This document shows positions 31,711 to 38,475 of a stretch of DNA of 39,560 bases, in pieces. This DNA comes from Rhizobium sp. Q54 (GTDB lineage: Bacteria > Pseudomonadota > Alphaproteobacteria > ATCC43930 > CGMCC-115725): NCBI GenBank assembly GCA_945861155.1, contig CAMATN010000035.1:1-39560 (forward strand). The letters run 5' to 3'. Every line of letters begins with the position of its first letter. The stretch's first letter is position 1. The notes under the pieces were generated by a model. It had not been told where the DNA came from, ran no database searches, and saw nothing but the letters and a program-made list of their open reading frames with translations. A program made the position numbers and the translations under genes.

Positions 31711-32610
31711 ATGGCGCAGGCAAGGCTGATCGACGGCAAGGGGATTGCCGCTTCTCTGCGGCAGCGGATCGGCGCGGCGGCCGCGAGCCTGCGCGAGCGC
31801 GACGGTGTCGTCGCGGGCCTCGCCGCGATCCTGGTCGGCGACGACCCGGCGAGCGATGTCTACGTGCGCGGCAAGGCGCGGGCCTGCGATGCCGTCGGGA
31901 TTGCCTCGTTCGAATACCGCTTGCCGGCGAATGTTGGGATCGCCGCGATCGGCGAGCTGATCGGCAAGCTCAACGCCGACGATCGGGTCGACGGCATCCT
32001 TGTCCAGCTGCCGCTGCCGCGCACCCTCGATCCGCATCTTGTCGTCGCCGCGCTCGACCCGGCGAAGGACGTCGACGGGTTTCACCCCATCAATATCGGG
32101 CGGCTGTGGGGCGGCGGCGAACCCGGCCTCGTGCCATGCACGCCGGACGGCGTCCTGATGTTGCTGCGCAGCGTCTCGCCAGACTTGTCGGGCGCCGACG
32201 CCGTCGTGCTCGGCCGCTCGCAGATCGTCGGCCGGCCGATTGCCGGGCTGCTTCTCGCCGCCGATTGCACGGTGACGATCGTCCATTCCCGCACCCGCGA
32301 CAGCGCCGCGATCTGCCGGCGCGCCGACATCCTGATCGCGGCGATCGGGCGTCCGGCGACGGTCGGCGCGGACTGGATAAAACCGGGGGCGACGGTGATC
32401 GATGTCGGGATCAACCGGCTGGCGGTTCCAGAACGCGGAATGACGCTGGTCGGCGACGTCGATTTCGAGGCGGCGCGCCAGGTTGCCGGAGCGATCACTC
32501 CCGTGCCGGGCGGCGTTGGACCGATGACGATCGCCTGCCTGTTGCGCAACACTTTGCTTGCCGCATGCCGGCGCCGCGGGCTGCCCGACCCCGATTTGCC
32601 GGGAGCCTGA
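31711..32610 (+). CDS. folD: Bifunctional methylenetetrahydrofolate dehydrogenase/cyclohydrolase
   Basis: This 299-residue enzyme interconverts 5,10-methylene-THF and 10-formyl-THF. Tyr51 and catalytic Lys55 are in YVRGKARA, Gln99 in VQLPLP and Asp122 in [12 protein letters not shown]. The NADP-binding part is [17 protein letters not shown], then TVTIVHSRT and VIDVGINR. It ends with [18 protein letters not shown]. Length is near normal. GGGAAACGG before the ATG is a weak ribosome site. A short hairpin follows at 32661. Confidence 0.95.
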
Positions 32611-32660
32611 CGAACTCTGGGCGATGTCTTATGAACTCTTGGCGACCTCTCGCGGGAACC

Positions 32661-32682
32661 GCGTGCATCGCACGCTTGTTCT
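32661..32682 (+). terminator. Weak hairpin terminator candidate after folD
   Basis: GCGTGC-ATC-GCACGC followed by TTGTTCT. The stem is only 6 bp with a 3-base loop, so termination would be partial at best. Confidence 0.4.
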
Positions 32683-32718
32683 ACCGGTGACCATCCCCCG
32701 AGAAGGAGTCCCCCTGAT

Positions 32719-33201
32719 ATGATCACCAAGACAGTGACAAGCCTGGCCTTCGCGGCCGGATGCGTTCTCGCGCTGGGCGCGACGGCGCAGGCGCAACAAA
32801 ACCCGCAATATATAGGGCAGCCGCAGATCAACATGGGGCAGCCGCAGCCAATGGCCCAGCAGCATCATATGGGCCAGCCGCATATGATGGGGCAGCCTTA
32901 TATGGGTGAGCCGCAGCGTCCCATGGCGACGCGGATGGTGAGCAATGCGCCGCAGCCCAGTCGAGGCGATCTCGGCGGCTGGTCAGCGCGGCGCAACAAC
33001 ATCCAAAGCGCGCGCTACGACCAGCTGCTGCAGACCAACATGGGGTTCCGCAGCGCCCGGATGAAGAAGGAATGCGGCCCGATCAACGATCCGCAGCTGA
33101 GGGGCCAGTGCCTGGCGAGCTTCCAGCAGTACGAACCGGTCATGACCGGTTCATCGATCCCGTCGCGCCACTGGCACCATAATCGCAACGCGGGTTATTA
33201 A
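32719..33201 (+). CDS. Exported Met/Gln/Pro/His-rich protein with MGQP repeats
   Basis: A 160-residue periplasmic or surface protein. The signal peptide is at residues 1-25 (GCVLALGATAQAQ at its end). A low-complexity region at 30-70 repeats GQP with Met/His: IGQPQINMGQPQPM, HHMGQPHMMGQPYMGEP. A folded C-terminal part has NNIQSARYDQLLQTNMGF, MKKECGPINDPQLRGQCLASF (in part) with Cys119 and Cys131, probably a disulfide, and ends with HWHH. Met- and His-rich repeats could bind metal such as copper, but this is inference. AGAAGGAG is the ribosome site. A strong terminator follows, so it is probably a single-gene transcript. Confidence 0.82.
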   Translation: MITKTVTSLAFAAGCVLALGATAQAQQNPQYIGQPQINMGQPQPMAQQHHMGQPHMMGQPYMGEPQRPMATRMVSNAPQPSRGDLGGWSARRNNIQSARYDQLLQTNMGFRSARMKKECGPINDPQLRGQCLASFQQYEPVMTGSSIPSRHWHHNRNAGY

Positions 33202-33230
33202 TCGAACCTGCGTTTGCCGGTTTCCGAACA

Positions 33231-33258
33231 GAGGCCGCCCCCGGGCGGCCTCTTCTTT
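33231..33258 (+). terminator. Strong intrinsic terminator
   Basis: A perfect 10-bp stem GAGGCCGCCC / GGGCGGCCTC with a 2-base loop is followed by TTCTTT. It ends transcription from the exported-protein gene. On the opposite strand, after rho, the run is TGTTCGG, so it acts mainly on the plus strand. Confidence 0.85.
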
Positions 33259-33269
33259 GCCGGCAGCGA

Positions 33270-34526
33270 CTAGGTATTCATCGCGTCAAAAAACTCGGAA
33301 TTATTCTTTGATTCCTTGAGCTTGTTGATCAGGAATTCGAGCCCGTCCGAGGTTCCCATCGGCATCAGAACCCGGCGCAATACCCACATCTTCGCCAAGA
33401 CCCCGCGGTCGACCAGCAATTCTTCCTTTCGGGTGCCGGATTTGGTGATATCGAGGGCTGGGAAGGTGCGCTTGTCGGCGACCTTGCGGTCGAGCACGAT
33501 TTCCGAATTCCCGGTGCCCTTGAATTCCTCGAAGATCACCTCGTCCATTCGCGAGCCGGTATCGATCAGCGCGGTGGCGATGATGGTCAGCGAGCCGCCC
33601 TCCTCGATGTTGCGGGCGGCGCCGAAAAACCGCTTCGGCCGCTGCAGCGCATTGGCGTCGACGCCGCCGGTCAGCACCTTGCCCGACGAGGGCACGACGG
33701 TGTTGTAGGCGCGCGCGAGCCGGGTGATCGAATCGAGCAGGATCACCACGTCGCGCTTCTGCTCGACCAGACGCTTGGCCTTTTCGATGACCATCTCGGC
33801 GACCTGCACATGGCGTGTCGCCGGCTCGTCGAAGGTCGAGCTGATTACCTCGCCCCTGACCGAGCGGGCCATATCGGTGACCTCCTCCGGCCGCTCGTCG
33901 ATCAACAGCACGATCAGGTAGGTTTCCGGGTGGTTGGCAGCGAGCGCATGCGCGATGTTTTGCAGCATCACGGTCTTGCCGGTGCGCGGCGGCGACACGA
34001 TCAGCGCGCGCTGGCCCTTGCCCAGCGGGGTGATCAGGTCGAGCACCCGGGTCGTCAGATCCTTCTTGGTCGGATCGTTGAGCTCGAGTTCGATCTTCTC
34101 TTCGGGATAGAGCGGCGTCAGATTATCGAAATTGATCCGGTGCCGCAGCCGGTCGGGCTCCTCGAAATTGATGCGGTTCACCTTGAGCAGCGCGAAATAG
34201 CGCTCGCCGTCGCGCGGCGAGCGGATCTGGCCCTCGACGGTGTCGCCGGTGCGCAGCCCGAAACGCCGCATCTGGCTTGGGCTGACATAGATGTCGTCCG
34301 GCCCAGGCAGGTAATTCGCCTCCGGAGACCGCAGAAATCCGAACCCGTCCGACAGCACCTCGACAACGCCGTCGCCCGAAATCGGCACATCGTTTTCGGC
34401 CAGTTGCTTCAGCACCGCGAACATCATGTCCTGCTTGCGCAACGACGATGCGTTCTCGATCTGCAACTCTTCGGCGAATGCCAGCAGTTCCGCTGGAGTC
34501 TTCCGCTTCAATTCCTGGAGATTCAT
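33270..34526 (-). CDS. rho: Transcription termination factor Rho
   Basis: This 418-residue hexameric RNA helicase ends transcription. The N-terminal helical domain is [20 protein letters not shown]. The cold-shock-like RNA-binding fold follows, with [20 protein letters not shown] and [18 protein letters not shown]. The ATPase core has P-loop [11 protein letters not shown] (GKT at 183-185), [25 protein letters not shown] and the R-loop [21 protein letters not shown]. Length equals that of E. coli Rho. The start is set by family alignment; the 66 residues-worth of in-frame sequence upstream is leader. It lies downstream of hemE-hemH-hemJ with a 200-bp leader holding its own promoter. Confidence 0.97.
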
Positions 34527-34651
34527 GGGTCTTTGTGTGGCGATGAGGGGGCTGGCCCGTCTACGGGAGGCTGCACGCGCAGAGTCCGGCAAATCGGGAG
34601 GTCTTCAAGTGTATGGAGAATGTCGGAGAACCGGCTGGCGGTATGGCGGTT

Positions 34652-34726: not shown

Positions 34727-35188
34727 TCAAAACGGCCGCACCACGACGAGCACCACGATCCCGATCATGATCACCGTCGGAACCTCGTTGATAAGACGGT
34801 AAAATCTTGAATTATGCGAGATTTTTCCTACGGCGAAATCATGCCGCCAATGCGCCAGCATCAGGTGAAAGACGGTCAGCAGCGCGACAAGCGCGAGCTT
34901 CGCCCAAATCCAGCCCCGATGCCACTCGGCAACCCCGGGAATCGCCACCAGAGCGAGGCCAAACCCATAAGTCATCACCGCCGCCGGCGCCATGATGCCA
35001 CGCAACAGGCGTCGCTCCATGACCTCCAGCATCGTCGCCTGGTCCGACCCGATCGGCGCATCCGCATGGTAGACGTAGAGTCGCGGCAGATAGAGCAGCC
35101 CCGCCATCCACGCGATCACTGCGATGATGTGCAACGATTTGAGCCCCGGATAGAGCCAGGGATAGCTCGCCGCGAGAATCTCCGTCAT
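34727..35188 (-). CDS. hemJ: Protoporphyrinogen IX oxidase HemJ
   Basis: This 153-residue inner-membrane enzyme performs the six-electron oxidation of protoporphyrinogen in bacteria lacking HemG/HemY. Four membrane segments are visible. The family residues are in GLKSLHIIAVIAWMAGLLYLPRLYVYH (in part, conserved His), ERRLLRGIMAPA, WIWAKLALV, the LMLAHW helix end and SRFYRLINEVPTVIMIGIV. ATG overlaps the hemH stop as ATGA, so synthesis is coupled to ferrochelatase, the next pathway step. Confidence 0.94.
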   Translation of the reverse strand: MTEILAASYPWLYPGLKSLHIIAVIAWMAGLLYLPRLYVYHADAPIGSDQATMLEVMERRLLRGIMAPAAVMTYGFGLALVAIPGVAEWHRGWIWAKLALVALLTVFHLMLAHWRHDFAVGKISHNSRFYRLINEVPTVIMIGIVVLVVVRPF

Positions 35189-36183
35189 GCCATGCCCGAC
35201 ACTGCTGCCGGAATTTCCACGGGCAGCCGGTTTTGCTCAGTCTCCCGGACGAGCCCGGCGAGAAATTCGATAAATCGGGGATCGATGCCCAATGTCGGCA
35301 CGCGATGATAGCCCACAACCCCGCTTTCCTCGGCCGCGCGGCGGTAGTCTCGGTCGAGTTCGACAAGCGTTTCCGAATGTTCGGAGACAAACGAGACCGG
35401 CACGACGACAACGGCAACCCTATCGCGACCCGCCCGGTGCAGCTCGTCCTCGACCGACGGTCCCAACCAGGCGAGCGGCCCGACCCGGCTCTGGTAGCAT
35501 ACGCGCCAATCGAGCCCCGGTCTCCCAAGCGCATTCACGACCGCGGTCGCCGTACTCTCGACTTCCTGCGGGTAAGAATCTCCCGCACGGACGATCTTCA
35601 ACGGCAATCCGTGCGCGCTGAACAGCAACCGAACGGACTGCGCCGCGGCGCCCGCAGTATCAAGCGCACCAGCAATCGGCCCAACCAGCGATGCGATGAA
35701 CCCCGGCGCGGCCGGATAAGACCGGATTTCCCGGGTCGCGGTAGCAAGACCCTGACACCTCGCCTCTTCGTGCCACGCTTGCTGCGAGGAGCCGGTGGTG
35801 GTGGTCGAAAATTGCGGATAGAGCGGTAGCAGCACGATGTTGTCCGGTTGCCATGCCTTGACCGCTTTCACCGCCGCCGCCGTCAGCGGATGCCAGTAGC
35901 GCATCGCGATAAAGCAGCGATATTCGGCGCCAAGCGCTTCCTCGAGCGCGCGTGCCTGGGCTTGCGTATTTGGCAGAAGCGGCGACGATCCGCCGAGTTG
36001 AGCGTAGATTGCCCGTGCGGTCCCGGCCCGGCGCGCGGCGATGAGCCAGGCCAGCGGCAGCCGCAACAGTTTGGGCAGATCGATGATCGCCGGGTCGCTG
36101 AACAGATTGTAGAGGAATGGCCGCACCGCATCGGGCGAGTCGGGTCCGCCCAGATTCATTAGCACGACCGCCCGGCGCGCCAT
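35185..36183 (-). CDS. hemH: Ferrochelatase
   Basis: This 332-residue enzyme inserts Fe2+ into protoporphyrin IX. It begins MARRAVVLMNLGGPDSPDAV. The active-site His is in LLFSAHGLP and the acidic partner in SFVSEHSETLVELDRDYR. YPQFSTTTTGS and VCYQSRVGPLAWLGPS are further conserved blocks. The ATG is one base after the hemE stop and the TGA overlaps hemJ. No C-terminal [2Fe-2S] cysteine cluster was seen. Confidence 0.96.
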   Translation of the reverse strand: MARRAVVLMNLGGPDSPDAVRPFLYNLFSDPAIIDLPKLLRLPLAWLIAARRAGTARAIYAQLGGSSPLLPNTQAQARALEEALGAEYRCFIAMRYWHPLTAAAVKAVKAWQPDNIVLLPLYPQFSTTTTGSSQQAWHEEARCQGLATATREIRSYPAAPGFIASLVGPIAGALDTAGAAAQSVRLLFSAHGLPLKIVRAGDSYPQEVESTATAVVNALGRPGLDWRVCYQSRVGPLAWLGPSVEDELHRAGRDRVAVVVVPVSFVSEHSETLVELDRDYRRAAEESGVVGYHRVPTLGIDPRFIEFLAGLVRETEQNRLPVEIPAAVSGMA

Positions 36184-36184
36184 G

Positions 36185-37228
36185 TCAGGTCCGGTCGACC
36201 GGCTGGGCCAACAGTCGCGCCAGCTCGGCGACATGCTCCGGCGGCGTCTGCGGCAGGACCCCGTGGCCGAGGTTGAAGACAAAGCCGCCATCGCCAAGCG
36301 CAGCGCGAATAGACGCGACAGCCCGCTCCAGCGCCGCCCCGCCGGCCAAAAGCGCCACCGGGTCAAGATTGCCCTGCACCGCCGTCAGGCTCTGTAGCCG
36401 CTCGCGCGCGACGCTGAGCGGGACCATTGTATCGAGCCCGATCGCGTCGATCCCGGTTTCAGCCGCATAGCGCTCGTAGAGATGCCCGGCGCCGCGCGGA
36501 AAGCCGATTACCGGCACCGTCGGAAAACGCCGTTTCAATGCGTCCCTGATCCGCCGCGTCGGCTCGATTACCCAGCAATCAAATTCCGCCTCCGGCAGGA
36601 TTCCAGCCCAGCTGTCGAAGAGTTGCACCGCATCGACCCCGGCCTCGATCTGGCCCGACAGATAGGCCGATGTGGCCTCGACGAGCAGCTCTATCAGCGC
36701 GGCAAACCCCGCCGGATCACGATAGGCCCAGATCTTGACTTGGCGGAAATCCCGGCTGGCCCCGCCCTCGACCATATAGGTCGCAACGGTCCACGGCGAC
36801 CCGGCAAACCCGATCAGCGCCGTTTGCGGCGGCAGGGCAGCGCGGCAGAGCCGCACGGTCTCGTAAACCGGGTCGAGCGCGACAATGCCGGCGAGGCTGA
36901 GCCCGGCAATCCCGGCATGTTCGTCCAGCGCGTCGAGCCGCGGTCCGTCGTCGCCAAAGCTCAGCCGTTGCCCGAGGGCCTGCGCCACCAGCAGGATGTC
37001 GGCGAACAGGATCGCGCCGTCCATGCCAAAGCGGCGGATCGGCTGCAATGTCGCCTCGGCCGCCAGCGCCGGGGTTAAGCAAAACTCGACGAAATTTGGC
37101 GACCGAGCCCGCAATGCTCGATATTCCGGCAGGTAACGCCCAGCCTGACGCATCAACCACCATGGCGGTCTGGCAAGGACTTCTCCAGCCAACGCACGGA
37201 GCAGCGGTTTCGCTTTGTCACCCGGCAT
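36185..37228 (-). CDS. hemE: Uroporphyrinogen decarboxylase
   Basis: This 347-residue cytoplasmic enzyme converts uroporphyrinogen III to coproporphyrinogen III. Key parts: ARPPWWLMRQAGRYLPEYRA with two substrate-binding arginines, FADILLVAQALG with the catalytic Asp, GFAGSPWTVATYMVEGG, DSWAG and VQGNLDP. NLGHGVLPQTPPEHV ends the fold. The ATG at 37228 gives the family N-terminus (MPGDKAKPLLRAL); further in-frame codons upstream fall in the probable origin. It is the first gene left of the oriC gap, as in Caulobacter. Confidence 0.96.
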   Translation of the reverse strand: MPGDKAKPLLRALAGEVLARPPWWLMRQAGRYLPEYRALRARSPNFVEFCLTPALAAEATLQPIRRFGMDGAILFADILLVAQALGQRLSFGDDGPRLDALDEHAGIAGLSLAGIVALDPVYETVRLCRAALPPQTALIGFAGSPWTVATYMVEGGASRDFRQVKIWAYRDPAGFAALIELLVEATSAYLSGQIEAGVDAVQLFDSWAGILPEAEFDCWVIEPTRRIRDALKRRFPTVPVIGFPRGAGHLYERYAAETGIDAIGLDTMVPLSVARERLQSLTAVQGNLDPVALLAGGAALERAVASIRAALGDGGFVFNLGHGVLPQTPPEHVAELARLLAQPVDRT

Positions 37229-37650
37229 CAGAGCCGATCCATCTTCTATTATAAGGTTTAACTCTAGTGATGTGGTAGATGTAGATGTGCGGGGGAAAGC
37301 GGGGATAAGCGGATATTCCTGATTGTTCCCCGCCACGGTGACGGCGATGTTTGGTTTGCGACAGCTTGGTGCATAACGCTAGAATCCCGTGCCCACCCCG
37401 TACGGATTGGCATGGCGGCGGTCGCGTATGAAAGCGGGAAAACAGACTTGGCCACATAACCATCCCGATCGGCGGAGACTGAGGATAAGGTGACTGGCCG
37501 GTTGATAACGATCGGATTCGTGATGGCGTATCGGGGACAGCAATCGCGACGCCCGGAAATCCCCGCGGTTCTTCCCGTTATGCGACGGTTGATCCCCAGG
37601 ATGGTCCCCAGGGCGGTTCCCTCGACCCACGGCAACCCCGCGAGAGCCCG
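37229..37650. other. Probable chromosomal replication origin (oriC)
   Basis: A 422-bp gap without a gene lies between divergent hemE and ppsR. In Caulobacter and Rickettsia the mapped or proposed origin lies beside hemE. Near hemE there is an A/T-richer stretch (about 37240-37290) that could unwind. DnaA-box-like sites, compared with TTATCCACA: minus strand 37480-37488 TTATCCTCA (8/9), 37300-37308 TTATCCCCG (7/9), 37500-37508 TTATCAACC (7/9); plus strand 37590-37598 TGATCCCCA (7/9). No full CtrA site (TTAA-N7-TTAA) was found by eye. Flanking genes point away on both sides. Confidence 0.7.
37248..37253 (-). promoter_or_regulatory. Possible hemE -10 element inside the origin gap
   Basis: A perfect TATAAT on the minus strand, about 20 bases before the hemE ATG. 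No good -35 was found at 16-18 bp, and the leader would be very short. In Caulobacter a hemE promoter lies inside oriC, so the position is suggestive. The same bases may belong to the A/T-rich unwinding region. Confidence 0.35.
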
Positions 37651-38475
37651 GTGGCACTGACCCGGTTTCATCTTCACCTCGTCTCCGATTCGACCGGGGA
37701 TACGGTCCACTCCGTCGCGCGTGCCTGCCTCGTGCAGTTTGACGAGGCGCAGGCGATCGAGCATGTCTGGAGCATGGTGCGGACGCGCAGTCAGATTGAT
37801 CGCGTCATCGCCGGGGTCGAGGCCAATCGCGGGCTCGTCCTGTTCACGATGGTCAACGATGCGCTGCGCCAGCTTCTTCAGGAGGAATGCCGCCGGTTGC
37901 AGGTGCCGGCGATTCCCGTCCTTGATCCGGTTATCGGTGCGCTGGCTGCCTATCTCGGGCGCGAGAGCCGGGGGCTTCCCGGGAAGCAGCACCTGCTCGA
38001 CCGCGAGTATTTCGCCCGTATCGACGCGATGACCTTTGCCATCAACCATGATGATGGCCAATCGAGCTGGGGGATCAATGACGCGGATGTGTGCCTCGTC
38101 GGGGTGTCGCGGTCGTCGAAAACCCCGACCTGCCTCTATCTGGCCAATCGCGGGATCAAAGCGGCAAACGTGCCGTTCGTGCCCGGCGTCGCGTTGCCGG
38201 CGGAATTGTTTACCGCCGAGAAGCCGCTGATTGTCGGGCTGACCAATGACCCGGAGAGGCTGATCCATCTGCGCCGCAACCGGCTCAGCATGCTCGATCA
38301 CAACGAGGCGACGGATTACACCGACCTCGAGGCGGTGCGTGCCGAGGTGCGCGAGGCGCGTCGCGTCTTTTCGCAACGGCATTGGCCGGTCATCGATGTA
38401 ACCCGCCGCTCGATCGAGGAGACAGCATCCTCGATCCACAAATTGCTGATGCGGCGGCATGGCAGCGACGCTTGA
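37651..38475 (+). CDS. ppsR: PEP synthase/PPDK regulatory protein (DUF299)
   Basis: This 274-residue bifunctional kinase/Pi-dependent phosphorylase controls pyruvate phosphate dikinase or PEP synthase. It opens FHLHLVSDSTGDTVHSVARA; the P-loop-like nucleotide site is GVSRSSKTPTCLYLA at 151-165. NVPFVPGVALPAELF and GLTNDPERLIHLRRNRL follow, with the end SIEETASSIHKLL. The start is a GTG at 37651. It is the first gene right of the origin gap, as RP001 is in Rickettsia and CC0001 in Caulobacter, by recollection. It overlaps maf by 17 bp. Confidence 0.93.
   Translation: MALTRFHLHLVSDSTGDTVHSVARACLVQFDEAQAIEHVWSMVRTRSQIDRVIAGVEANRGLVLFTMVNDALRQLLQEECRRLQVPAIPVLDPVIGALAAYLGRESRGLPGKQHLLDREYFARIDAMTFAINHDDGQSSWGINDADVCLVGVSRSSKTPTCLYLANRGIKAANVPFVPGVALPAELFTAEKPLIVGLTNDPERLIHLRRNRLSMLDHNEATDYTDLEAVRAEVREARRVFSQRHWPVIDVTRRSIEETASSIHKLLMRRHGSDA

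Follow-up and report, generated by a model that had tools for sequence, protein, structure and literature searches.

The replication origin of Caulobacter crescentus (Cori) lies between hemE and CC0001, a COG1806 gene, and contains five CtrA sites and an IHF site (PMC1914354). The hemE/COG1806 position is likely to be the ancestral origin location of the alphaproteobacteria, and the predicted origin of Rickettsia prowazekii, with predicted CtrA and IHF sites in an A/T-rich genome, is bounded by the same pair of genes (PMC1914354). Within the Rhodospirillales, CtrA has been reported to be dispensable and dnaA not to be close to ori (PMC8116508). A different set of origin elements, the DnaA basal unwinding system (BUS), has been described in Bacillus subtilis and other bacteria, where DnaA-box(es) are followed by a spacer and DnaA-trios (PMC6669920, PMC8287927).

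The DNA analysed here (the window, 39,560 nucleotides) is one entire contig (C35) of a 4.88-Mb draft genome in 226 contigs. The genomes closest to it in the collection come from metagenomes and are labelled uncultured 'Alphaproteobacteria bacterium', and the order to which it belongs probably falls within or near the Rhodospirillales. We consider the gap between hemE and ppsR in this window to be, very probably, the chromosomal oriC, the orthologue of the Caulobacter and Rickettsia hemE/COG1806 origin. The gap resembles Cori in its boundary genes, in its similar intergenic region and in having a cluster of DnaA boxes together with an AT-rich block of about 40 bp (Cori as described in PMC1914354), and it shares the hemE-COG1806 pair with R. 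prowazekii. Unlike Cori, it contains neither CtrA nor IHF sites (each at up to one mismatch), and unlike the A/T-rich R. prowazekii, where both kinds of site are predicted, it has a GC content of 58%. The order of its parts, namely box(es), a short spacer, a strand-biased triplet-like tract and AT-rich DNA, is that of the BUS, but the triplets are degenerate, often with G for A in the middle position (TGG for TAG), and the strict rule, which asks for three NAN trios in a row beside the box, does not hold where the window has its AT-rich element. This is a known kind of origin at its expected site, and the trio-like tract and the missing CtrA and IHF sites are the parts worth testing. The assignment gives this uncultured soil lineage, for which draft metagenome genomes are the main source of knowledge, an origin that can anchor skew, gene-dosage and growth-rate (peak-to-trough) estimates.

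Gene order and the hemE-ppsR gap

The first-pass annotation had proposed a probable chromosome replication origin in a 422-bp gap between hemE (minus strand) and ppsR-maf-aroE (plus strand). The gene starts and the Pfam matches agree with this arrangement, the non-coding gap being exactly 37229-37650, and the proposal itself is supported by the gene pair, by the skew and parS/parB in relatives and by conserved boxes. The gap and its boundary genes are as follows.

37229..37650, no strand: proposed oriC, the gap between the divergent hemE and ppsR genes; gene pair and gap are kept in relatives
36185..37228, minus strand: hemE, uroporphyrinogen decarboxylase, boundary gene (URO-D PF01208, E 1.6e-111)
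37651..38475, plus strand: ppsR (COG1806/DUF299), PEP synthase regulatory kinase/pyrophosphorylase, boundary gene (Kinase-PPPase PF03618, E 7.2e-94)

hemE starts with an ATG (37226-37228, minus strand) and ppsR with a GTG at 37651. Pfam matches identify hemE, hemH (35185-36189), hemJ/UPF0093 (34727-35188) and rho (33270-34592) as reading leftward, and ppsR, maf and the start of aroE as reading rightward. The genes on both sides, including rho and three haem genes, do read away from the gap as had been stated, with genes on both strands beyond rho to the left. The likeness drawn earlier to the gene order at the Caulobacter origin and its Rickettsia counterpart also holds, since the boundary pair is the same (PMC1914354). 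The GC content of the gap (58%) compares with about 65% in its surroundings.

ppsR was found to be kept in 49 of the 61 genomes searched. In all fetched loci whose contig spans far enough, hemE is divergent to ppsR across a gap of 372-476 bp, and the divergent pair persists down to 48-51% hemE identity; the window has this divergent hemE/COG1806 (ppsR) intergenic region. The sequence of the gap was observed to vary freely except for box-like words, an AT-rich block and a strand-biased tract.

DnaA boxes

The gap was scanned for the DnaA-box consensus TTATCCACA, with dinucleotide-preserving shuffles (n=200) as the null. Six boxes at up to two mismatches were found against 1.10 expected, a number reached in 0 of the 200 shuffles, and one site at a single mismatch against 0.12 expected (p 0.11). 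Over 31 gaps, the window included, 143 boxes were observed at up to two mismatches compared with 28.6 in shuffles (maximum 42), and 44 compared with 2.2 at one mismatch. The cluster of DnaA boxes beyond chance that characterizes hemE/COG1806 origins is therefore present in the window and over the 31 gaps. The gap contains no perfect TTATCCACA, which counts against the oriC reading. In the whole 4.88 Mb genome, exact TTATCCACA occurs as six scattered copies, none of them at the origin, against 18 copies of the reversed control word, and the exact word was dropped as an origin finder in this genome.

Conservation of the box positions was assessed by aligning 13 near relatives and counting boxes with up to three mismatches at positions within 3 bp. 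The background mean of box recurrence over all positions was 1.5 (3 mismatches, 13 near relatives). The box-like sites of the window are listed below.

37290..37299, minus strand: site where relatives have their trio-proximal DnaA box (TTATCCACA in L041); the window has a degenerate version, about TTTCCCCCG (31 gaps compared by anchoring)
37300..37308, minus strand: predicted DnaA box TTATCCCCG adjoining the trio-like strand; box in 8 of 13 near relatives (up to three mismatches), consensus YNATCCCCG
37368..37376, minus strand: predicted DnaA box TTATGCACC, position conserved in 10 of 13 near relatives
37480..37488, minus strand: predicted DnaA box TTATCCTCA, 8/9 (one mismatch), the best box of the first-pass annotation; position not conserved
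37500..37508, minus strand: weak box-like site TTATCAACC, not conserved (3 of 13 near relatives)
37590..37598, plus strand: predicted DnaA box TGATCCCCA near ppsR, the best conserved position (12 of 13 near relatives; 8 of 13 at up to two mismatches)

Four near-consensus boxes had been described earlier, with that at 37480-37488 as the best. The cluster was correctly recognised, although its size was an undercount (six at up to two mismatches). Site 37480 is the lone site with one mismatch but does not qualify as a key site, as it recurs in only 4 of 13 near relatives at three mismatches and in 1 of 13 at two; site 37448 recurs in 0 of 13. Alignment of the gap with relatives, which had been suggested as a check, gives conserved box positions at 37590(+), 37368(-) and 37300(-), and to judge from this alignment these, and not 37480, are the predicted key sites. 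Among the words found above shuffle expectation in the gaps are TTATCCCC, AATCCCCG, TCCACAGC, TTATACAC and AGGTAGT; these correspond to variants of the DnaA box and to the trio-like tract.

AT-rich element and trio-like strand

An A/T-richer end near hemE had been noted before, and we observed that this end of the gap has 30% GC over 40 bp and contains the 50-bp stretch of lowest stability in the contig. This stretch, starting at 37236, ranks 0 among 39,510 contig windows, with a nearest-neighbour energy of -58.3 compared with a mean of -80.9 (sd 4.8). The raised AT content and the block of low stability seen at hemE/COG1806 origins are thus both found here. The two elements at this end are:

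37236..37285, no strand: proposed DNA unwinding element, with the lowest stability of any 50 bp in the contig by nearest-neighbour energy
37265..37289, plus strand: 25-nt C-free strand TAGTGATGTGGTAGATGTAGATGTG, DnaA-trio-like, the longest C-free run of the window

The C-free strand overlaps the least stable DNA and runs on into it, and this putative trio tract begins 10 nt from the box at 37300-37308. A BUS would have a DnaA box of up to two mismatches within 16 nt of its trio tract. In 28 of the 31 gaps, the midpoint of the longest C-free run fell within the first 30% of the length. The layout in relatives is a box, a second box, a short spacer, TAG/TGG repeats and AT-rich DNA (L041, L028 and G038). 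The element at 37236-37285, the strand at 37265-37289 and the box at 37300-37308 likely form a melting module that the first-pass annotation overlooked, in which the C-free strand is presumably the single strand gripped by DnaA.

No match to the strict trio rule (at least three consecutive trios with A in the middle) was found where the window has its AT-rich element, and the module is therefore termed trio-like and not a proven BUS; the missing match also counts against the oriC reading. The rule does find matches at the AT-rich element in L030 and L031, but rarely at the right place in relatives. A relaxed (T/C) rule matched in many places and was rejected as not diagnostic, and the count of in-phase TRG triplets was significant only in a few relatives.

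The anatomy of the gap, the box enrichment, the conservation and the positions of skew and parS in relatives were computed, whereas firing of the origin in this genome, DnaA binding to the boxes and the melting step are inferred. ATP-DnaA would bind the degenerate boxes across the gap, among which the positions 37590(+), 37368(-) and 37300(-) are conserved. Starting at about 37290-37308, where the box or boxes lie, a DnaA filament could then grow along the C-free, purine-rich trio-like strand (37265-37289). The adjacent AT-rich element at 37236-37285 would melt and helicases would load there, and two forks would depart, one towards hemE-rho and the other towards ppsR-maf-aroE. The C-free tract offers a testable case of DnaA-trio drift in a GC-rich genome.

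GC skew and parS in relatives

Because the genome of the window is a draft of 226 contigs that cannot be ordered, cumulative GC skew, another check that had been suggested, was computed on relatives. In three of four relatives the minimum lies 12-40 kb from the gap and, where the two can be compared, not at dnaA. G037 is a closed chromosome of the same order (5.34 Mb). Sixty 20-kb samples from it placed the skew maximum near 2.4 Mb and the minimum near 5.04-5.10 Mb, roughly antipodal, while in contiguous sequence the curve bottoms out at 5,055.5 kb and stays flat as far as 5,100 kb, a stretch that includes the gap (about 5,094.6-5,095.0 kb). The dnaA gene of this chromosome is at the record start, on the rising slope, 245 kb from the gap and about 280 kb from the skew minimum. 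For the same-family contig of G013 the minimum was found at 196.0 kb, the gap at about 213.6 kb and dnaA at 120.7 kb, and for that of G016 the minimum was at 150.0 kb and the gap at 138.1-138.6 kb. In both of these contigs, 0 of 500 block permutations reached the observed change point. The hemE/COG1806 gap is thus at the skew minimum in G037, G013 and G016 but not in G015, where the skew is weak and reversed, peaking at the gap, and not significant (change-point p 0.44), a result that counts against the oriC reading. G015 (L173-L191, G015:C19) belongs to a genus of smaller genomes and has parS/parB at the usual distance despite its reversed local skew. The window itself has a local skew minimum at about 37.0 kb, which partly reflects gene direction.

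Near-perfect parS sites were found about 8-21 kb from the gap, and parB at distances of up to about 24 kb, on the hemE side in G013, G015, G016 and G037, and the parS sites near the gap are nearly the only ones in these genomes. In the genome of the window parS is on C137 and parB on C39, apart from C35, and this too counts against the oriC reading. The cluster that follows rho in relatives, including the same-genus G003, continues here on C137 and then C39; parS is also near in G002. In the window, folD and other genes come after rho (32560-33270), and the conserved rho-to-parB cluster is broken there. The rest of the cluster (an oxidoreductase gene, a gidA-like gene, parS, then parA-parB) was located at G000:C137 (L192) 1-2575 and G000:C39 (L193) 1-1600. 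The break beyond rho is either a rearrangement in this species that separated parABS from the origin or a misjoined contig, and the gap is unaffected by either.

Alternative explanations

In many bacteria the origin lies beside dnaA, and the gap could instead be no more than an extended region of divergent promoters in which a few DnaA boxes persist. Three box-like sites (up to two mismatches) do lie upstream of dnaA in the genome of the window (L108), and the divergent hemE and ppsR genes need promoters in the gap, where a promoter-like match was found at 37356-37385. We regard this explanation as unlikely, given that two relatives, G037 and G013, carry both loci on a single sequence and have their skew minimum at hemE-ppsR, with dnaA about 280 kb and 75 kb from that minimum, respectively. 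The hemE-ppsR gap also exceeds the dnaA upstream region in the number of boxes and in column conservation. Moreover, parS/parB adjoin hemE-rho in relatives, which speaks against an origin beside dnaA, and the reported distance of dnaA from ori in Rhodospirillales (PMC8116508) points the same way.

It is still less probable that the gap is an ancestral origin, now fossil or secondary, with initiation moved elsewhere after a rearrangement that split off parS/parB. Such a history would account for the break just beyond rho and for the degenerate boxes and the absence of perfect TTATCCACA from the gap, but the boxes are still enriched 5-fold in the window, the AT-rich and C-free module is intact and the local skew changes sign at the gap. 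In addition, parS is still near in the same-genus G002 and G003, and the parS/parB split may be an assembly error. An ncRNA gene or a riboswitch for hemE or ppsR, suggested by a long conserved intergenic region between two genes, is hardly credible as an account of the conserved gap: no Rfam match was found for the gap up to E 1, the gap has no terminator-like site, and conservation is confined to box-like words, AT-rich DNA and strand bias while the other sequence changes freely.

CtrA, IHF and regulation of the proposed origin

With oriC as the preferred reading, its control can be compared with that of Cori. No CtrA site (TTAA-N7-TTAA, up to one mismatch) was found in the gap, which bears out the earlier remark that no complete site was seen, and this absence holds across the family: when the gaps of 30 relatives were scanned at the same threshold, a site turned up in that of the distant L042 alone. 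The IHF site WATCAANNNNTTR (up to one mismatch) is likewise absent from the gap and sporadic in relatives. These sites are missing though ctrA (two copies), gcrA and a CcrM-like gene (CcrM by the RAMA domain only) are encoded in the genome, so that the locus has the Caulobacter location without the Caulobacter gate. The absence of CtrA sites is in itself not unusual for this branch, and that of both kinds of site fits the reported dispensability of CtrA in Rhodospirillales (PMC8116508). A hemE-ppsR origin kept without CtrA sites in this branch also agrees with the reported non-essentiality of CtrA in early-branching Alphaproteobacteria.

It is possible, though rather doubtful, that this family of high-GC soil alphaproteobacteria opens its origin by a deviant DnaA-trio tract, in which TAG is often TGG, without the middle adenine, and the C-free strand is kept, free of direct CtrA/IHF control despite the presence of ctrA, gcrA and the ccrM-like gene. 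If true, the tract would be a natural case of the deviant trios suspected in PMC8287927.

Two genes scored above the CtrA family cut-off, G000:C159:7006-7677 and G000:C67:6966-7637, which points to either a paralogue or contamination (2.3% estimated). The CcrM site GANTC was not enriched over the gaps (67 observed, 56 expected). The window has no TTTAGATTCTAA, a word holding GANTC, in its unwinding element. About half of the relatives do carry this word, or a near variant, in their own unwinding element, for example at gap position 20 in L022, L025 and L027 and at position 24 in L026.
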